From IMG/VR virus record IMGVR_UViG_3300022913_000001, positions 1-51,567 of that record: 51,567 nucleotides of DNA; one strand, written 5' to 3'. The notes under the pieces were generated by a model, which saw only the letters and a list, made by a program, of their open reading frames with translations, was not told the origin of the DNA and made no database searches. How positions within the stretch are numbered: the stretch's first letter is position 1; the number at the start of each line of letters is the position of its first letter. Both the position numbers and the translations under genes were made by a program. Below, piece after piece: positions 1,816 to 37,921 of the stretch. This DNA is from a virus.

Positions 1816-2109
1816 ATGTTTGATTTAATTACAACAATAAACACACCTGCACTTATTCAAAAAGATGATTTAATTATCCGTCAATTAGTTACTGAATATG
1901 ACAACAAGGTTGCAGCTGCTAAAGCTGCAATTGAAACGATAAAAGACCCAAAGTTCTTTGATGAAGCTCAAGCTTTTGGTTTACTTTATGTTGCTGCAAC
2001 ACAGTACGCGTATTCATCACCTAAACCGATTTATGATGTATATAGATCTGAATATGAAAGGCTGGACGAAATAAACACGGTTTATCCCCGTGCTTACGGG
2101 GAACACTAG
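1816..2109 (+). CDS. Small unknown protein whose C-terminus is encoded by a CRISPR repeat
   Basis: A 97-residue mainly helical protein with no recognised family. It follows the 1411 gene by 3 bp with a ribosome site AAAAAAGGA. Its last nine or so residues (VYPRAYGEH) are read from CRISPR repeat 1 (2078-2106), and the stop codon TAG is the first triplet of spacer 1. The array therefore appears to have landed in, or grown against, the 3' end of this gene, and the original C-terminus may be lost. Confidence 0.65.
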   Translation: MFDLITTINTPALIQKDDLIIRQLVTEYDNKVAAAKAAIETIKDPKFFDEAQAFGLLYVAATQYAYSSPKPIYDVYRSEYERLDEINTVYPRAYGEH

Positions 2110-2409
2110 ATTAGGTTTGATTTTCATTTTTAGCAGCGGTTTATCCCCGTGCTTACGGGGAACACAATTAATGATTTTTGCCAATCTATGCCAATAGCGG
2201 TTTATCCCCGTGCTTACGGGGAACACGGTTAGCGGTGATTTTAGAGTACAAACTCTGGCGGTTTATCCCCGTGCTTACGGGGAACACAGTTCCAGCGATT
2301 GCCTGCAAACTGCTGTATATGGTTTATCCCCGTGCTTACGGGGAACACTTCCGCAAGTTTCTTTTCTAATTGAGATGTGTCGGTTTATCCCCGTGCTTAC
2401 GGGGAACAC
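2078..2409 (-). CRISPR. Type I-E-like CRISPR mini-array carried by the phage
   Basis: Six 29-bp repeats start at 2078, 2137, 2198, 2259, 2320 and 2381. On the plus strand each begins CGGTTTATCCCC and ends CGGGGAACAC, with an inverted CCCCGT/ACGGGG stem. All are identical except the repeat at 2320, whose first base is T. Five spacers occupy 2107-2136 (30 nt), 2166-2197, 2227-2258, 2288-2319 and 2349-2380 (32 nt each). The repeat resembles the E. coli-type I-E repeat; read on the minus strand it ends GGGGATAAACCG, giving an ATAAACCG 5' handle. Transcription should therefore run leftwards from a leader at 2410-2500. No cas genes are present anywhere in the window, so crRNA maturation and interference would need host Cas proteins. 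No spacer was seen to match this genome by eye. Confidence 0.97.
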
Positions 2410-2494
2410 TCTTAACGAAATTACAAACAAAATCAACAACTTAAAAGCGTGCTTAAATGTTACCGAATTGTTACAGCGTATTTTCACTAAGTGA
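2410..2494 (-). promoter_or_regulatory. CRISPR leader transcript region
   Basis: An AT-rich stretch of about 85 nt between the predicted start of transcription (near 2494, minus strand) and the leader-proximal repeat (2381-2409). I see no convincing gene in it. New spacers would be expected to enter at its left edge if a host I-E adaptation machinery recognises it. Confidence 0.55.
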
Positions 2495-2529
2495 TAATTA
2501 ATTATAACAACTAATTTGACTATTTGCAA
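2490..2529 (-). promoter_or_regulatory. Palindromic promoter reading into the CRISPR array
   Basis: The palindrome copy at 2490-2509 has an intact right half. On the minus strand it gives an extended -10 TGTTATAAT (-10 at 2501-2506) with -35 TTGCAA at 2524-2529 and a 17-bp spacer. The left half carries two mismatches, so rightward use is weakened. This is the same promoter class that drives the phage's leftward genes, and it is correctly oriented to produce the pre-crRNA. Confidence 0.75.
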
Positions 2530-2540
2530 ATTATATATTA

Positions 2541-2654: not shown

Positions 2655-3116
2655 ATGGATACAGAAAATCAATTTAATAAAGCAATCAAGCTCTTAAAAC
2701 AAAAAAAATATACAGAAGTTTTTGATATACTTTTGAAGCTAGCTAATCAAGGACATGCTCCAGCTCAATTTCAGCTTGGCAAAATGTATGATTTAGGTAA
2801 AGGCGTAGATTTAGATCATCAGAAAGCTATTGAGTGGTACGAAAAATCAGCCGATCAAGGTTATATTAATGCTCAATTTAGCCTAGGTTCTTCATATTAT
2901 TTGGGTATAGGCGTAGAGCAAGACTACAGGAAAGCTGTTGAATGGTACACCAAAGCAGAAGAGCAAAACGATGCAGATTATAGCAAAGACGGTAAATTTT
3001 ATACTGGCGTAGACTCCATAGAATCGTTTAATTGGCACAAAGAAGCTGCAATTTCTGGGAAAAAATCAGCGTATTTTTATTTACTGGTAGATGGAGACGC
3101 AGCAAATGACTCATGA
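2655..3116 (+). CDS. Sel1-repeat protein 1
   Basis: A 153-residue protein made of Sel1-like (SLR, TPR-related) repeats of about 36 residues. Units of the form A-Q-F-x-L-G-x-M-Y-x-x-G-x-G-V-x-x-D-x-x-K-A-x-x-W-Y-x-K-A-A-x-x-G span roughly residues 35-105, after an N-terminal TPR-like helix pair (FDILLKLANQGHAPAQ). Sel1 repeats form helical scaffolds for protein-protein contact. No signal peptide is seen, so it is probably cytoplasmic. The ribosome site AGGAG is 5 bp before ATG. It is the first of three tandem Sel1 genes with short overlaps, forming one operon downstream of the structured RNA. Confidence 0.85.
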   Translation: MDTENQFNKAIKLLKQKKYTEVFDILLKLANQGHAPAQFQLGKMYDLGKGVDLDHQKAIEWYEKSADQGYINAQFSLGSSYYLGIGVEQDYRKAVEWYTKAEEQNDADYSKDGKFYTGVDSIESFNWHKEAAISGKKSAYFYLLVDGDAANDS

Positions 3117-3753
3117 AAAGATGAAAGCTAAATTTAATGAAGCAGCTGCACTTCGTAAAAAATGGGAATATGAAGCAGCTTTTAATATTTTTTCTGAATT
3201 AGTAAATTATGCCCCAGCTCAAAACCAATTAGGCGAAATGCATCAAAAAGGTTTGCATGTAGAGAAAGACTACAAAGAAGCTATCAAATGCTTTACTAAA
3301 GCTGCTGATCAAGGTTTTGGCAAAGCCAATTACAATCTAGGAGTTATGCATGAAGAAGGCGAAGGCGTAGAGAAAGATAAACAAAAAGCTTTTGATTACT
3401 ACAAGCTAGGAGCTGATCAGTGTTGTGTTGAATCTCTGCACCATCTAGGATACGCATATAAAAATGGCTGGTATGGTGTAAAACAAAACTACAAGAAAGC
3501 TATTGAATATTTTACCAAAGCAGCTAATCAAGGTTATTCTTACTCTCAATATGCATTAGCTATGATGCATCACCTAGGAGAAGGTGTAGATAAAGATGAT
3601 AATAAGGCTCTTGAATTATTTAAACAAGCAGCCGAGCAAAATTATCCAACAGCTCAAGTAATGATTGATGAGATTAATAAGGAGCCGCATTGTTTTTCGA
3701 TAATGCAAAAAGAATATGATGAAGTTAAAAGGAAAAGAAAAAATGACTGCTGA
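3106..3753 (+). CDS. Sel1-repeat protein 2
   Basis: A 215-residue Sel1-repeat protein with about four SLR units (for example NQLGEMHQKGLHVEKDYKEA and YNLGVMHEEGEGVEKDKQKA). I place the start at 3106 rather than the in-frame ATG at 3091: GGAG at 3093-3096 is 9 bp upstream, and the resulting start MTHEKMKAKF mirrors MTAEKIEAQF of the next paralogue. It overlaps the preceding gene by 11 bp and the next by 11 bp, implying translational coupling. Its role is unknown. Adaptor or host-interaction functions are usual for the family. Confidence 0.85.
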   Translation: MTHEKMKAKFNEAAALRKKWEYEAAFNIFSELVNYAPAQNQLGEMHQKGLHVEKDYKEAIKCFTKAADQGFGKANYNLGVMHEEGEGVEKDKQKAFDYYKLGADQCCVESLHHLGYAYKNGWYGVKQNYKKAIEYFTKAANQGYSYSQYALAMMHHLGEGVDKDDNKALELFKQAAEQNYPTAQVMIDEINKEPHCFSIMQKEYDEVKRKRKNDC

Positions 3754-4690
3754 AAAAATAGAAGCTCAATTTGATAAAGCAATGGGGCTTTACAATCAAG
3801 GAGACTACAAAGACGCTTTTGATGGTTTTTTAAAGTTGGCTAATCAAGGACATCCAGAAGCTCAAAATATGTTAGGCAACATGTATGACAGGGGCGAAGG
3901 AGTAAAAATTAACGACAAAAAAGCCATTGAATGGTACACTAAAGCAGCCGAGCAAGGCGATGTAGATGCTCAATTTAATTTAGCTTTTATGCATAGAAAC
4001 GGTATTGGCACAGAAGTTAGTCACAAAGAAGCTGCAAAGTGGTACACTAAAGCAGCCGAGCAAGGCGATGTAGATGCTCAATATAATTTGGGCAAAATGT
4101 ATGAATTAGGCGAAGGTGTAGAACAAGATTACGAGCAAGCTGCTTATTGGTACACCAAGGCAGCTGATAAAGGACATATATACGCTCAAACCGACCTAGC
4201 TGATATGTACAAGCAAGGCTACGGTGTAGAGCAAGATTATAAAAAAGCTTTTGATTTGTATAGCAAAGCAGCCGAGCAAGGAAGCTCCAGCGCTAAAAGA
4301 GGGTTAGCTAGCATGTATTATAACGGTAAAGGCGTGAAACAAGATAAGCAAAAAGCCAGAAAATTGCATCAAGCAGCCGACAATAAACTAGTTCAAAATG
4401 CCAAAACCTTTGTTAATTCAGACAACAACGGAACTGAAAAAAATGTATCGGACCTAGAGTTTTACGGCAATAAAGATTCATTTCAGTTAATCTGCAAGGC
4501 AAGCTCTCAAGCAGAAGGCTGGATGAAGTCAACTAAAGCTATGGAAATCAAAGGCGTTGGATGCTTAGTGCAAGTTTCTACTCAACACGGAGCGAGTGTT
4601 GCTGAAGCATTGACTTTTGTACCAGAAATAAAAATAGCTTGGATAGATGACAGCGATCATTCTAAAGGGCGTAAATTAGTAAAAATATAG
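3743..4690 (+). CDS. Sel1-repeat protein 3 fused to a phage-type C-terminal domain
   Basis: A 315-residue protein. Residues about 15-215 hold five to six Sel1 repeats. The last 80 residues, beginning LEFYGNKDSFQLICKASS and containing GWMKSTKAMEI and a beta-rich VQVSTQ...ALTFVPE segment, are a different domain. It resembles, as far as I can recall, short unnamed proteins found in other tailed phages next to gp49-type genes. The start at 3743 is preferred over 3716 because AAGGA lies about 10 bp upstream. A 43-bp exact direct repeat inside the Sel1 part points to recent repeat duplication. The next gene starts 6 bp after the stop. Confidence 0.8.
   Translation: MTAEKIEAQFDKAMGLYNQGDYKDAFDGFLKLANQGHPEAQNMLGNMYDRGEGVKINDKKAIEWYTKAAEQGDVDAQFNLAFMHRNGIGTEVSHKEAAKWYTKAAEQGDVDAQYNLGKMYELGEGVEQDYEQAAYWYTKAADKGHIYAQTDLADMYKQGYGVEQDYKKAFDLYSKAAEQGSSSAKRGLASMYYNGKGVKQDKQKARKLHQAADNKLVQNAKTFVNSDNNGTEKNVSDLEFYGNKDSFQLICKASSQAEGWMKSTKAMEIKGVGCLVQVSTQHGASVAEALTFVPEIKIAWIDDSDHSKGRKLVKI
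3932..4082 (+). repeat. 43-bp exact direct repeat inside the Sel1 gene
   Basis: Bases 3932-3974 and 4040-4082 are identical, 108 bp (exactly 36 codons, one Sel1 unit) apart. They encode WYTKAAEQGDVDAQ. Silent positions are also identical, so the duplication is recent or maintained by recombination. Confidence 0.9.
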
Positions 4691-26812: not shown

Positions 26813-29800
26813 GTGCAGGTCATACTAACAACTAAATACCAGAAATTAAAAGATCTAGTAGACAGTGTTTCTACTAGCTATAAAATTCAGGTTACCGCAG
26901 GGCGAGTTTTAGCCCTCGAATCAACAATCGCCCCCGAACCATCATCAAGTGATGGCAATTCTTTCGGATTAGGCGAGTTTTTCACTTCAACAGCAGAACA
27001 AGGAGACCTTTATGTACGGGGGACGACCAGTCAAACCACAATAAATGTTATTGCAACATCGTCATTTAGTGCAGGAATAGCACCATTTACAGGTGCAACA
27101 GGTACCACAGATGGCGGAGGCTCTGGCGGTAGTGATTCAGCCGTTGAAGTCAAAGTAAAGTATGAGAGCAACCCAAACACAAATGCTTTTACCGATGATG
27201 AGAAAGAGAAATTAAGCAAATTAAGCGAGTCTTCCTTTGAAATATCGGGCATCACTCACAACTATAATAATAATCAATTAACAACAAGTATTACAGACAC
27301 TAACGGTACCGTTACTTCTAATTCTGTAACAATTGAAGCAGCAGATGTTGACGATGTAACGGGCGTGTCTATGGATTTGGTTGATGGCACTATATCAACC
27401 ACATTGACTAAAAAGAACGGCGGCGTTGTTAGCTCAATTCCAATTCCTTTACCTGAATCAAATGATGCAAAATCAATAGAAAATACCATTGCTTCAGGAC
27501 AGCTCAAAACCATCATCACTCTAACAGATGATACCGTATTAGAATCAACCCCAGTTAATTTACCAACAGGCGGTGGCGATGGTGGCGGAGTTACTCCAGA
27601 GCAATTAGATGAAGCAATAGCTGGAGCTAATGAATATGCAGATCAAGGGGATGCTACAACACTATTATCAGCCGAATTTTTAGCGGTTGAAAGCAATGTA
27701 TTATCTATTGAAAATGGCAAACTAAAATCAGTCATATCACAGGTTGACGGCACTAATATTGAATCTAATGAAGTAACTTTACCTACAGGTGGTTCAGTCA
27801 ATATAGATGCACCAGATAACACAGTAGTTAAAGTAATTGGTGGCGAGCTGGTGGCATCTGGTGTTATTGAACAAAACGGCAGTATACAAATAGCCCCATC
27901 TTCTGTTGAATTAGGTGCGCATAGATTATCTAGTATTGGTGACTCATTAGGCGTTAAGAGCTTAGCTACAGATCAACAAAGAGCGTTACTTTTCCAAGAT
28001 ATAACCAATGGCATTACTCAACGACCATATGTATATAAAATGATAAGCAATGCTTGGGAAAATGTAGAAAATATACCCAATAACACAGGCTCAATTACTA
28101 AAGCTAAGCAGATAATACAAGGTTTTGGTGCAGAAGGTTATTACATTATTAAGCCTGGAAGTTTGCTTTTTGAAACTGCTGAACCTACTACTGATTTTGT
28201 ATTTACCATATATGATTTTGATAAAAAAATATTTGAAAAAAAATATAATACTGAAAGTTCTAACGAAAAACTACTAATACATGATGCAATTATATTAGAT
28301 GGTGCAGCAGAGATATCTTTCTCAGTTACTGATTTAGAAGGCAACCCGATAGCTTTAAAAGGCTCCGAGGCAATAGATACTCAAAGATTTGCCTTTATAG
28401 TAAGAAATGCCGAGCGAGCTTATCTAGCTTACCAAGGCGAAGGTGGCGATGGCGGCGGCGGTACTGGAGATGTTACTCAAGAGCAATTAGATAATGCTAT
28501 TTTAGAAGCTAAACAGCATGCTAATCAAGGCGATGAAACAACTTTAGAATCTGCTAGAGAATTTGATATAAAATCATCTTTCTTGAGTTTAACCGACACT
28601 AATAAATTAAAAGGGCAAATCCATTTAAATAATGGCACAGTATTTAATACTAATGATATTAATTTGCCTGTAGCAGATATTACTAAAGCCGAAACTGAAC
28701 AAATGGTACACGATCGTACTGTATTTGGTAATGTTCTGAAAATAGAAGGCAACTATTTAACCAGCACAATTCAGTTAAATAACGGCATGCATATATTTTC
28801 TGACATTGTCAGTTTGCCAGATGGTACAGGTGTATCTCTACAGCAAGTAAGAGACATTGTAGACGACGAGACCAAAGATAAAGTTAGTCAAACAAAAGCC
28901 ACGATCGATTCTCTTTTACAAATATATAGTTTTGATAAAAACGATATGTATGCAGGATTGATCATTGCAGACAACCCCGATACTTTTAGTGACGATTACA
29001 GTGGGTTTATCATTGATAATGATGCTGGAGAAATTGGTTTTCGTTACATATTTAGAGAGGACGGAGAATTTTCGCAAAATACATCTGCTAAAATTATTAA
29101 AGACGAAAATAGATTTATATTCACTAATGTACCTAAAGTAAATGATATTTTTTTAGCTGACAGAGAATATGTTGACACCAAATCGTTTTTAACAAAAGTT
29201 GATCTTACTTTAAATGATAATATTATTGATTTAAATGAAGATTATACTGGGCAGAATGTTTTTGTACATGGCTCAGGTTTAGATTCAGGTTTAATATTAG
29301 ATGCTGCTAACTATAAAGATTATGAATTAATACAAATAACTAGGGCTAGCGATTACACTAATGCTGCTATACCTGTAACAATTAAAGAAGCAGATAAAAC
29401 AACACAATATTTAGTGCAGGGAACAACAACATTTGGTGTTTTTAACGGGCATTGGTTGATCTTAAGCGACGCTTCTGTTACTTTAGCAGAGATTAGCCAG
29501 CGTGCTGGTTTTCAGCAATACATCCAAATTAAGGCTGGTCAAGGCATGACTTCAAGCATTGATCAATTTGGTGTAATGACGCTTAATGTAGTTGGCGGCG
29601 GTGGTGGCAATCCTTCGTTTGAGATACCTGATAATACTGTACCTGTTATTGTTGATAAATTACCTGTTGCCAGTGCTATATCTGTAGAATTTGATCAGCT
29701 TATATCACCATATGGGCAGCAAATAGCAGGTCATATACTGGATTCTCGTGGTGAAGTATTGGCTACTAATAGTCATGCTAATGTTACTCAACCGATAGAT

Positions 29801-31837
29801 ACTATAGGTCGATATTCTAATCCTAAAATATTTAAAGAAGTCGAACTTGAGCAGCCATCTACATTTATTAATACTAGCATGCACGATGAGGCGATCGTAC
29901 ATCCTAGCGGACAAGAGATTGTTGTTCATAGTGAAGATTATAGTTACATACGCACAGAGCCTGACGCCATTCATTTTAGAACAGGTAAAATTATTCAGGG
30001 CTGTTTATTTTCCATATTAGATAATATTGGAAATTTAATTTATAAACATAAATCAAGCGAAACGCACAACTCTAATGCCGTAGTGTATATCCAATGCCCA
30101 AGTCTGACTTTAAGAGCTAACAAATCATACTTTTTTATAGTTACAGATTTAGAGGGCAACCCAATACCTTTGCTTGGCTCTGGTGATGTTCAGTCGTGGG
30201 TATTTAATTACCGCAATTTAACGCAACATGAGCTGTTAACAGATCAAGATTCAGTATTACCAGATGTTGCATCATTTATGCATCTTAAAACGCTGCAAGT
30301 AACCGATTTAACCGAATCATCTGGGATTACTTTTAACAGTAATGGTACTCTTGAAGTTAACGGTCAACTTAATATGCAAAACAAGCATATTCTTGAGCTA
30401 TCAGCAGCAGAACACGACCATGAAGCAACTAATCTAGGACAAGTAAAGTCTTTGATTGCTAATGCTGATTTTACTGGAAATATAAGCGTTGATGGACAAG
30501 AAGTTGAAGATATTCAGCTTAACGAAGATGCTTTTGTTTACAGCTACAATCCTGTAACTAAAGTTTTACACTTAGATACTAAGCAAAGCGGTGGCGGTAG
30601 TAGTACGGCTGATGGCACTGTAAACCCAATTGTTAGTGTAGACCAGATGGAAGGTTATTTAGTTGAGTTTGCTACAGCAGACGGTAAGTTTATTCGATCA
30701 TCTAATGTAAAATGGGCTGATATTCAAGCTGAACATGAACGCATTTGGGATAAGCTCGATCCTGCTTATAAAACAGCGATCACAGCTCAAACAGAGGCGG
30801 CGGCAAACACTCTAACTATTAGTCATACAAAACATGATTTGAGCCAACTTGAACGCAAAGTAACGCATAACCGCCTTACAAATGACGATCAAGCTTTGCG
30901 TATTGGGGAGCTACAAGTTGAGGATGCTCGTCAAGATAGGCATTTGAACAATCTCGACATAGATCATCAAAAAACTAAATCTACAGTAAGTAACCATCAA
31001 GTTTCATTAGATAGTGCTAATAGCAATATTGCTTCTTTACAATCACAGCAGGAAACTATTAATACAGAGCTATCTGCTTTAAATGCAGAAGTGCAAACGA
31101 TCACAGCATTACCTTTAGAAAGATTAGCTAAAGGCGAGTTTGAAACTAGTTTATATATAGCAGACAGTTTAGATTCGTTAACGGACACTTCTCATTTTAT
31201 AACTCCTTATGGTTCTGAAATAGATTTTCCTGCAACTCCATCACAAAGAACTGTAGAGCCTGCATATTCTATTAAGTTAAAAGTTGACGGAGTGAGCCAT
31301 GAAGCCTTAAAGCTTACTGCAACGGCAATCAGAGCTGGCACAAAACCTATTAAGGATGTGGTTGATGGTGTAGATGCTCAAGATGCAGCCACAGTAAATC
31401 AATTAGTTCCTATTAATGAAGCTATTTCTAAAATTCACGACCGTTTAAGCGTGATCGAGGCAATGCTTGGGATTATTAGTCCTCCAGCAGAGCAATTTCC
31501 TGTTTATGTTGGACGAATGGTTGAGGAAAGCACCAAAGATGCAGCAGTCATCAAAAGCATGGGGGTTGTATCAGGCGTGACAGAATCGACTTTGTTAACA
31601 ACTGATTATGTGGTGCCAGGGCATATAGCAACGCCAGAGTTACAGTTTAGTTACAGCGTGATTGCATATCCTAAAGGCGTGGTAAATCCTGATCCTATGT
31701 TTGTTGTGTATAACGGTTTACCAAAAGGCAGTCGCGAACACTACGAGCTTGTCATTGATGGCGTTATGTACATTGTGTTGCATAATCAATACCCAGATAG
31801 TTCAACAAATCCAATTAGTTACAAATTAGTCCAGTAA
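26813..31837 (+). CDS. Very long tail fibre / host-recognition protein
   Basis: A 1674-residue protein starting at GTG after AAGGAG. It is a mosaic: an N-terminal attachment part, Gly-rich linkers (GGGSGGSD; GGGDGGG; GGDGGGG), repeated beta modules and helical coiled-coil regions near residues 1300-1430. Two copies of a module of about 90 residues, each ending in a VTDLEGNPI segment, lie near residues 440-530 and 1040-1130. Two further matching linkers contain QEQLD or PEQLD followed by ADQGD/ANQGD. No enzyme motif was seen. It probably forms the long receptor-binding fibre. Confidence 0.75.
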   Translation: MQVILTTKYQKLKDLVDSVSTSYKIQVTAGRVLALESTIAPEPSSSDGNSFGLGEFFTSTAEQGDLYVRGTTSQTTINVIATSSFSAGIAPFTGATGTTDGGGSGGSDSAVEVKVKYESNPNTNAFTDDEKEKLSKLSESSFEISGITHNYNNNQLTTSITDTNGTVTSNSVTIEAADVDDVTGVSMDLVDGTISTTLTKKNGGVVSSIPIPLPESNDAKSIENTIASGQLKTIITLTDDTVLESTPVNLPTGGGDGGGVTPEQLDEAIAGANEYADQGDATTLLSAEFLAVESNVLSIENGKLKSVISQVDGTNIESNEVTLPTGGSVNIDAPDNTVVKVIGGELVASGVIEQNGSIQIAPSSVELGAHRLSSIGDSLGVKSLATDQQRALLFQDITNGITQRPYVYKMISNAWENVENIPNNTGSITKAKQIIQGFGAEGYYIIKPGSLLFETAEPTTDFVFTIYDFDKKIFEKKYNTESSNEKLLIHDAIILDGAAEISFSVTDLEGNPIALKGSEAIDTQRFAFIVRNAERAYLAYQGEGGDGGGGTGDVTQEQLDNAILEAKQHANQGDETTLESAREFDIKSSFLSLTDTNKLKGQIHLNNGTVFNTNDINLPVADITKAETEQMVHDRTVFGNVLKIEGNYLTSTIQLNNGMHIFSDIVSLPDGTGVSLQQVRDIVDDETKDKVSQTKATIDSLLQIYSFDKNDMYAGLIIADNPDTFSDDYSGFIIDNDAGEIGFRYIFREDGEFSQNTSAKIIKDENRFIFTNVPKVNDIFLADREYVDTKSFLTKVDLTLNDNIIDLNEDYTGQNVFVHGSGLDSGLILDAANYKDYELIQITRASDYTNAAIPVTIKEADKTTQYLVQGTTTFGVFNGHWLILSDASVTLAEISQRAGFQQYIQIKAGQGMTSSIDQFGVMTLNVVGGGGGNPSFEIPDNTVPVIVDKLPVASAISVEFDQLISPYGQQIAGHILDSRGEVLATNSHANVTQPIDTIGRYSNPKIFKEVELEQPSTFINTSMHDEAIVHPSGQEIVVHSEDYSYIRTEPDAIHFRTGKIIQGCLFSILDNIGNLIYKHKSSETHNSNAVVYIQCPSLTLRANKSYFFIVTDLEGNPIPLLGSGDVQSWVFNYRNLTQHELLTDQDSVLPDVASFMHLKTLQVTDLTESSGITFNSNGTLEVNGQLNMQNKHILELSAAEHDHEATNLGQVKSLIANADFTGNISVDGQEVEDIQLNEDAFVYSYNPVTKVLHLDTKQSGGGSSTADGTVNPIVSVDQMEGYLVEFATADGKFIRSSNVKWADIQAEHERIWDKLDPAYKTAITAQTEAAANTLTISHTKHDLSQLERKVTHNRLTNDDQALRIGELQVEDARQDRHLNNLDIDHQKTKSTVSNHQVSLDSANSNIASLQSQQETINTELSALNAEVQTITALPLERLAKGEFETSLYIADSLDSLTDTSHFITPYGSEIDFPATPSQRTVEPAYSIKLKVDGVSHEALKLTATAIRAGTKPIKDVVDGVDAQDAATVNQLVPINEAISKIHDRLSVIEAMLGIISPPAEQFPVYVGRMVEESTKDAAVIKSMGVVSGVTESTLLTTDYVVPGHIATPELQFSYSVIAYPKGVVNPDPMFVVYNGLPKGSREHYELVIDGVMYIVLHNQYPDSSTNPISYKLVQ

Positions 31838-36841: not shown

Positions 36842-37921
36842 TTATGCAAAATAACCCACTTTAAAAACAAGAGCAATACTTGATAAAACAAATTTTAAAA
36901 AAGAAGAAAACTTTATATTAATTTCATTTTGATATTTTTCTTCTATTAACTCTTTGTTTTGATTTGCAATTTTTATATTTTCACAAGTAGTTCTAGCTTG
37001 ATCAACTTCTCTTTTTTCAAAATCGTTTCTAGGAGCTATGTTGTCTAATATCTCAATAGCTTTGTTATGATTTAATGCTGTTCCTTTACCTTCTGCATGC
37101 ATACGAGCTAAATCAAATTTAGCATCCATCCTGCCTTTCTTTGCTGCTTTTTCATACCAATAAACTGCTGTTTGATAATTTTGCAACAATGTTTCTTTTT
37201 TTTCATAAAATCTAGCTAAATTATATTGAGCTTCTGCATGCCCTTGCTCTGCTGCTTGCGTAAACCAATAAACGGCTTTTTCAAAGTCTTGCTCTACGCC
37301 TTCTTGACCTTCATCATACATTTCACCTAGGTTGGATTGAGCTTGAGCATTCCCTTGATCAGCTGCCTTGGTGTACCACTTAACAGTTTCTTTACTATTT
37401 TGCTTTACACCGTAGCCTATTTTATACATAAAACCTAAACAAGATTGCACCTTTGCATTGCCTCGTTCAGCTGCTTTAATAAGCCATTCAATAGCTTCTT
37501 TGCGGTCTGTTTCTACAAATTTGCCTTCGTAGTACATATTAATTAAATTATTTTGAGCATTTGCATCACCTTGATCAGCTGCTTTAGTCCACCAGCTAAA
37601 TGCTTTTTTAAAGTCTTGCTCTACACCTTCGCCCACATAATATAGCTTACCTAAAACATATTGAGCATTAATATAACCCTGATCGGCTGATTTTTCGTAC
37701 CATTCAACAGCTTTTTGGTAATTTTGATTTACGCCTTCTTTGCCTTTCTCATATATAACGGCTAGATGATATTGAGAGTAAATAAACCCTTGCTCTGCTG
37801 CCTTGGTGTGCCACTCAATAGCTTTTTGGTAATTTTGCTTTACTTCATACATAAAGCCTAAATCAAATTGAGCATTTACATCACCCGCTTCGGTTTTCTC
37901 TTCTAATTCTTTTATATCCAT
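36842..37921 (-). CDS. Sel1-repeat protein with C-terminal membrane segment
   Basis: A 359-residue protein. Residues 1-290 are about eight Sel1 repeats (for example YVLGKLYYVGEGVEQDFKKA and NLGEMYDEGQEGVEQDFEKA). The last 20 residues are hydrophobic (FLKFVLSSIALVFKVGYFA), a possible tail anchor. It may be a membrane-bound scaffold in the host. GGAAAGG precedes the ATG. It follows genes at 37930 and 38289 in one leftward unit. Confidence 0.82.
   Translation of the reverse strand: MDIKELEEKTEAGDVNAQFDLGFMYEVKQNYQKAIEWHTKAAEQGFIYSQYHLAVIYEKGKEGVNQNYQKAVEWYEKSADQGYINAQYVLGKLYYVGEGVEQDFKKAFSWWTKAADQGDANAQNNLINMYYEGKFVETDRKEAIEWLIKAAERGNAKVQSCLGFMYKIGYGVKQNSKETVKWYTKAADQGNAQAQSNLGEMYDEGQEGVEQDFEKAVYWFTQAAEQGHAEAQYNLARFYEKKETLLQNYQTAVYWYEKAAKKGRMDAKFDLARMHAEGKGTALNHNKAIEILDNIAPRNDFEKREVDQARTTCENIKIANQNKELIEEKYQNEINIKFSSFLKFVLSSIALVFKVGYFA

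Follow-up and report, generated by a model that had tools for sequence, protein, structure and literature searches.

A type I-E CRISPR array without cas genes, with a probable leader and a promoter of the phage's own family, in a tailed phage genome

Results

A closed tailed-phage genome carries a type I-E array

The window analysed here is the whole of virus record IMGVR_UViG_3300022913_000001, 51,567 bases with an exact terminal repeat of 127 bp. Once that repeat is removed, the joint is spanned by an uninterrupted ORF, and the phage genome is accordingly closed and circular (51,440 bp, complete-looking) and the array lies away from any contig edge. Portal, head and terminase genes, an M15 endolysin, RecT, a RecE-like exonuclease, a resolvase-like protein and a DnaC-like loader identify a tailed phage, whose closest terminase relatives, at about 33% identity, belong to Vibrio, Shewanella and Escherichia phages. 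No nucleotide relative of its first 6 kb was found in the phage collection, and no relative among 296 genomes of the order. Scans with ORF 1816, ORF 1411 and the portal retrieved a single close relative, a 3.5-kb fragment with an 83% identical portal that stops short of the array; two further candidates (L007 and L008) look unrelated, L007 being GC-rich with a match that spans only 30 residues. Elsewhere in the genome, Sel1/TPR-repeat-rich proteins are encoded in two places (2655-4690 and 36842-37921), a 1,674-aa protein without Pfam match follows the structural genes (26813-31837) and may be a large virion protein or one that is injected, and an antitoxin-like SocA/Panacea-domain protein (PF13274; 39713-40198, minus strand) may belong to a toxin-antitoxin or counter-defence module.

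The features of the locus are collected in Table 1. The initial annotation had described six near-identical 29-bp, type I-E-like repeats with five spacers, and both coordinates and copies proved exact; its label of mini-array was dropped, since five spacers are too many for the strict class, whose published members hold 1-2. On the plus strand the repeat CGGTTTATCCCCGTGCTTACGGGGAACAC starts at 2078, 2137, 2198, 2259, 2320 and 2381 (repeat-to-repeat spacing of 59, 61, 61, 61 and 61). Five of the six copies are identical, the one at 2320 deviating solely at its first plus-strand base, a position that in type I-E is derived from the spacer or PAM. The repeat has the type I-E form (28-29 bp, CCCCG...CGGGG stem), its crRNA version bears an intact AUAAACCG 5' handle, and the RNA folds into a hairpin (7-bp stem, 4-nt loop, -12 kcal/mol). 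No two spacers are alike and, set against the I-E norm of 32-33 nt and a 61-bp period, four measure 32 nt and one 30 nt. If array growth is canonical, S5 is the newest spacer. No stray repeat occurs elsewhere in the window at up to 9 mismatches, and the repeat is absent from any other contig of the record.

Table 1 Features at the array locus (positions in the window; leader positions counted upstream from the first repeat)
Feature	Position	Strand	Remarks
Phage ORF, 97 aa (ORF 1816)	1816..2109	+	last codons in the array's end CRISPR repeat; stop within S1
CRISPR array, type I-E, 6 repeats/5 spacers	2078..2409	- (crRNA strand)	repeat GTGTTCCCCGTAAGCACGGGGATAAACCG; host arrays with the same repeat
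Spacer S1 CTGCTAAAAATGAAAATCAAACCTAATCTA	2107..2136	-	30 nt, leader-distal
Spacer S2	2166..2197	-	32 nt
Spacer S3	2227..2258	-	32 nt
Spacer S4	2288..2319	-	32 nt; on the crRNA strand it follows the handle variant ATAAACCA
Spacer S5	2349..2380	-	32 nt, leader-proximal
Leader-like region (probable)	2410..2500	-	upstream of the first repeat; ~90 bp between promoter and array
Leader end TTAAGA	2410..2415	-	the UBA2521 leader ends in the identical six bases
IHF consensus WATCARNNNNTTR, exact	2431..2443	+	leader -34 to -22; opposite strand to most host leader matches
Core GGTAACATTT	2455..2464	-	leader -55 to -46; host leaders have a GGTAGAATTT-type core at -54
Predicted promoter of the phage's repeated family, TTTGCAA, TGTTATAATTAATTAT	2501..2530	-	faces the array

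The array lacks cas genes and shares its repeat with a complete I-E system

Scans with Pfam, PHROGs and PADLOC detected no Cas family beyond generic helicase/HTH similarity, and tblastn of eight Cas proteins from the Shewanellaceae metagenome-assembled genome UBA2521 against the window gave chance-level matches only, in agreement with the earlier observation that no cas gene was visible in the phage. With no I-E cas genes adjacent, the locus is an orphan array. The small protein encoded before ORF 1816 (1411-1812) resembles CasR weakly in the PADLOC scan (E=9e-6), probably through no more than a shared helix-turn-helix.

Comparison of the repeat with those of candidate hosts, as had been proposed, revealed identity over all 29 bp to arrays of UBA2521 and some Xenorhabdus. 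Across 84,980 genomes, one per species, the 27-bp repeat core was present in only five records, four of Xenorhabdus and UBA2521. The UBA2521 array, in a region with a GC content of 37%, adjoins a full I-E set (Cas3, Cse1, Cse2, Cas7, Cas5, Cas6, Cas1 and Cas2). No other phage with the same repeat was found by an exact scan of IMG/VR or by blastn of 50,697 INPHARED phage records. Judged solely from the repeat, UBA2521 would be a plausible relative of the host and, the handle and repeat being identical to those of a complete I-E system, functional crRNAs are to be expected. At its leader-distal end the UBA2521 array continues in tandem longer units, whose repeat is degenerate (CTTACTCCCGTAAGCACGGGGATAAACCG) and which include a recurring insert that is not a spacer.

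A predicted promoter of the phage's repeated family faces the array

The palindrome TTATAATTAATTATAA and its near variants occur 19 times in the genome against 4.3 expected, mostly in intergenic positions. Within the 36-45 kb block, six sites on the minus strand that precede RecT and other genes have in common the layout TTTGCA - 16 - TGTTATAATTAATT(A/T)TAAC, and from these six a promoter model of two blocks with flexible spacing was trained, the site at 2501-2530 being excluded from training. Read on the minus strand, this site ranked 6th genome-wide, within the range of the training sites and with a maximal -35 score; the plus-strand reading of the motif lacks a -35. A position weight matrix of fixed spacing was discarded, as the array promoter, whose spacer is longer by 1 nt, scored too low under it. 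The site (TTTGCAA-N17-TATAAT) matches the sigma-70 consensus at 10/12 positions, with an extended -10, and some 92 nt separate the -10 box from the first repeat. Downstream of it on the minus strand no plausible gene is present and the array is the sole plausible target. These features suggest that the array is transcribed from the phage's own early-type promoter.

Occurrences of the TTATAATTAATTATAA motif lie at 415, 2492, 24930, 25018, 36751, 38863, 40886, 42524, 43469, 44647, 45803 and 48482; in the block of recombination genes it is accompanied by a TTTGCA -35, and it probably marks the phage's early regulon. Beyond the promoter, a GC-richer intergenic stretch (2545-2640, GGAAACGGTCGCCTTGCACCCCCTAAGCGTCGATAGCAATATCGGCAAGGC) looks structured; an Rfam search that included it matched no family.

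Since CRISPR arrays can be misassembled, a host array might have been fused to a phage contig by error. Phage sequence is found on both sides, coding to the left and marked by the phage promoter motif to the right, the 127-bp overlap closes the genome, and the junctions have few bases in common, far below that assembly overlap. A misassembly of host DNA is thus unlikely, and we consider it highly improbable as an account of the locus.

The region upstream of the array resembles a diverged leader

The stretch between promoter and array was compared with 19 I-E leaders from related genomes, Xenorhabdus and E. coli K-12. A GGT lies exactly at -54 in 18 of these 19 leaders, and at -55 in the nineteenth and in the phage. 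In E. coli adaptation, IHF occupies -9 to -35, the upstream Cas1-Cas2 contact -50 to -55 and Cas1-Cas2 binding -1 to -4 (PMC10011333), and the junction, IHF and core elements of the phage all fall within those intervals. The following tests were picked after inspecting the sequence. Among 103,134 places in the genome, a host-type leader end together with a core at -53 to -55 was encountered only at the array's upstream position, and the chance of both at one named place, calculated from the two observed rates, is ~7e-6. An anchored alignment to the UBA2521 leader gave P=0.001, outscoring 99.9% of random phage segments, and a gapped profile of the 19 host leaders gave P=0.006. Gaps were needed for this value because the phage core is shifted by 1 nt; with the ungapped profile the region ranked only 1079 of 102,996. 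Its profile score, -9 versus 17 to 48 for host leaders, is below every one of them, and the motif AAAACAA of the host-leader IHF region is absent from it. We regard 2410-2500 as a probable diverged I-E leader, probable rather than proven because the IHF element is inverted and because removal of a 331-bp segment at the array also rejoins a reading frame. The elements suggest a piece captured from a host locus that could still take up spacers.

This rejoined frame was the basis of our first reading, in which the array had been inserted into gene 1816. The ORF has a strong codon score up to 2077, and once the 331 bp are taken out it continues in frame into 27 open codons that end at 2494 (..DEINT-LNEITNKINNLKACLNVTELLQRIFTK; the frame is open across 2411-2491), while a single copy remains of the 5-bp AACAC that is repeated at both edges of the segment. 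Over 11 bp, the empty site deduced in this way, TTAAGAGTGTT, agrees with the leader-repeat junction of UBA2521. On this reading, part of a host array would have entered by accident where the 3' end of the gene happens to resemble a leader, through Cas1-Cas2 or through short-homology recombination by RecT and the RecE-like exonuclease, both encoded by the phage, and have persisted as a functionless passenger. However, the 27 post-array codons score 1.6, compared with a mean of 12.4 for coding sequence (about the 3rd percentile), a value equalled by 29% of open non-coding frames, and a frame match arises by chance 1 time in 3; in addition, the array-facing promoter and the perfect repeats point to an array in use or to one that arrived very recently. 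The codon test and the leader comparison led us to downgrade insertion into the gene, and with so weak a score and so common a frame match the leader reading is favoured over it roughly twofold. A functionless passenger of this origin seems to us improbable.

The spacers lack convincing targets in the collections searched

Searches for protospacers in phage and plasmid collections yielded only chance-level matches, as did the 296 genomes of the order, where the best match covered 23 nt (E=0.0018 for one genome among the 296). In IMG/VR, three of the five spacers, S3 to S5, were searched through short exact or wobble seeds, none of which led to a convincing protospacer. An S3 19-mer and an S4 wobble pattern had zero matches; an S4 17-mer hit 19 contigs with 10-14 mismatches across the full spacer, and an S5 16-mer hit 78 contigs, the best having 7 mismatches in the remaining 16 nt, and both sets were dismissed as chance. 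No spacer matches the phage's own genome, and no spacer of UBA2521 or Xenorhabdus matches the phage at up to 8 mismatches.

The initial annotation had proposed that the array either attacks competitors through host Cas proteins or acts as a decoy, and that a lack of hits combined with a mismatched handle would favour the latter. A cas-less I-E array in a phage is indeed present, whereas for competitor targeting no convincing protospacer was found in the collections searched; as for the decoy, matches are lacking as anticipated but the handle is identical to that of a complete I-E system. As an RNA anti-CRISPR-like decoy, the array would be transcribed strongly and early and swamp Cas6e and Cascade with irrelevant crRNAs, shielding the phage from host spacers. 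The phage-family promoter pointing at the array and the empty protospacer searches are in line with such a role, and multi-repeat transcripts would compete for Cas proteins. However, six perfect repeats, five different full-length spacers and intact handles are unneeded by a decoy, which weakens this reading, and spacers without a database match are normal when they derive from undersampled communities. RNA anti-CRISPRs (Racrs) exist for type I-E (PMC10651486), but the known ones are solitary repeat units. We consider the decoy an unlikely explanation.

Discussion

The locus, in a closed genome that encodes portal, terminase and head proteins but no Cas proteins, represents a variant within a known class, the viral CRISPR arrays that lack cas genes, whose mini-arrays have already been reviewed (PMC11656645). 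Like the arrays of the archaeal portogloboviruses SPV1 and SPV2 (PMC6858448), it combines a host-type repeat, a promoter and leader-like region upstream and no self-targeting with a lack of cas genes. The archaeal arrays have 1-2 spacers, whereas here a bacterial tailed phage carries a type I-E array of five spacers with a probable diverged leader and a promoter whose family is the phage's own, and a relative bearing a protospacer was not found. The mini-arrays of Faure et al. 2019, as relayed in PMC6858448 and PMC11656645, are likewise phage-borne, devoid of cas genes and built on a host-type repeat; in those accounts such phage and prophage mini-arrays and repeat units are described as leader-less, in contrast to the probable leader elements and higher number of spacers here. 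In a landfill survey, arrays occurred in 0.43% of viral elements with a mean of 8 spacers (PMC12607003), and both the array size and the phage genome size reported here are typical of that set; we found no mention of leaders in the text of that survey. Racrs, too, place a CRISPR repeat downstream of a phage promoter without cas genes (PMC10651486), but as a solitary repeat, as opposed to six repeats and five spacers. Vibrio phage ICP1, as summarised in PMC11656645, similarly exploits CRISPR, of type I-F, for its own benefit, but with cas genes of its own, of which there are none here. Leader elements together with a promoter belonging to the phage's own family were not found described in the literature examined.

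By a narrow balance of probability, we take the locus to be a phage-owned CRISPR transcription unit that relies on host Cas proteins and is aimed most likely at rivals. The early-type promoter at ~2501-2530 would direct minus-strand transcription first through the 90-nt leader-like region and from there into the array. Where the host has a matching I-E system, Cas6e would cleave the repeats of this transcript, and crRNAs with AUAAACCG handles would enter host Cascade and guide Cas3 to five foreign sequences, most likely in rival phages or plasmids. Competitor targeting is proposed by precedent, as published viral arrays that lack cas genes but carry host repeats target, or are proposed to target, related viruses (PMC6858448, PMC11656645). 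New spacers could be added by host Cas1-Cas2 and IHF, and recombination of the RecT/RecE type offers a plausible route of capture. A further, tentative possibility is that a captured I-E leader and array, rewired to a phage early promoter, form a self-updating immune memory, to which host Cas1-Cas2 would add spacers during infection and which host Cascade would turn against rivals.

Arrays of bacterial phages have been described as leader-less, which raises the question of whether phages control them and whether they have any capacity to learn. The present locus gives testable elements, namely a phage-family promoter and a leader-like region that has matches where Cas1-Cas2 and IHF are known to act, and these could be transferred to E. 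coli K-12 I-E assays. If the self-updating memory were true, spacer memory would be carried in virions.
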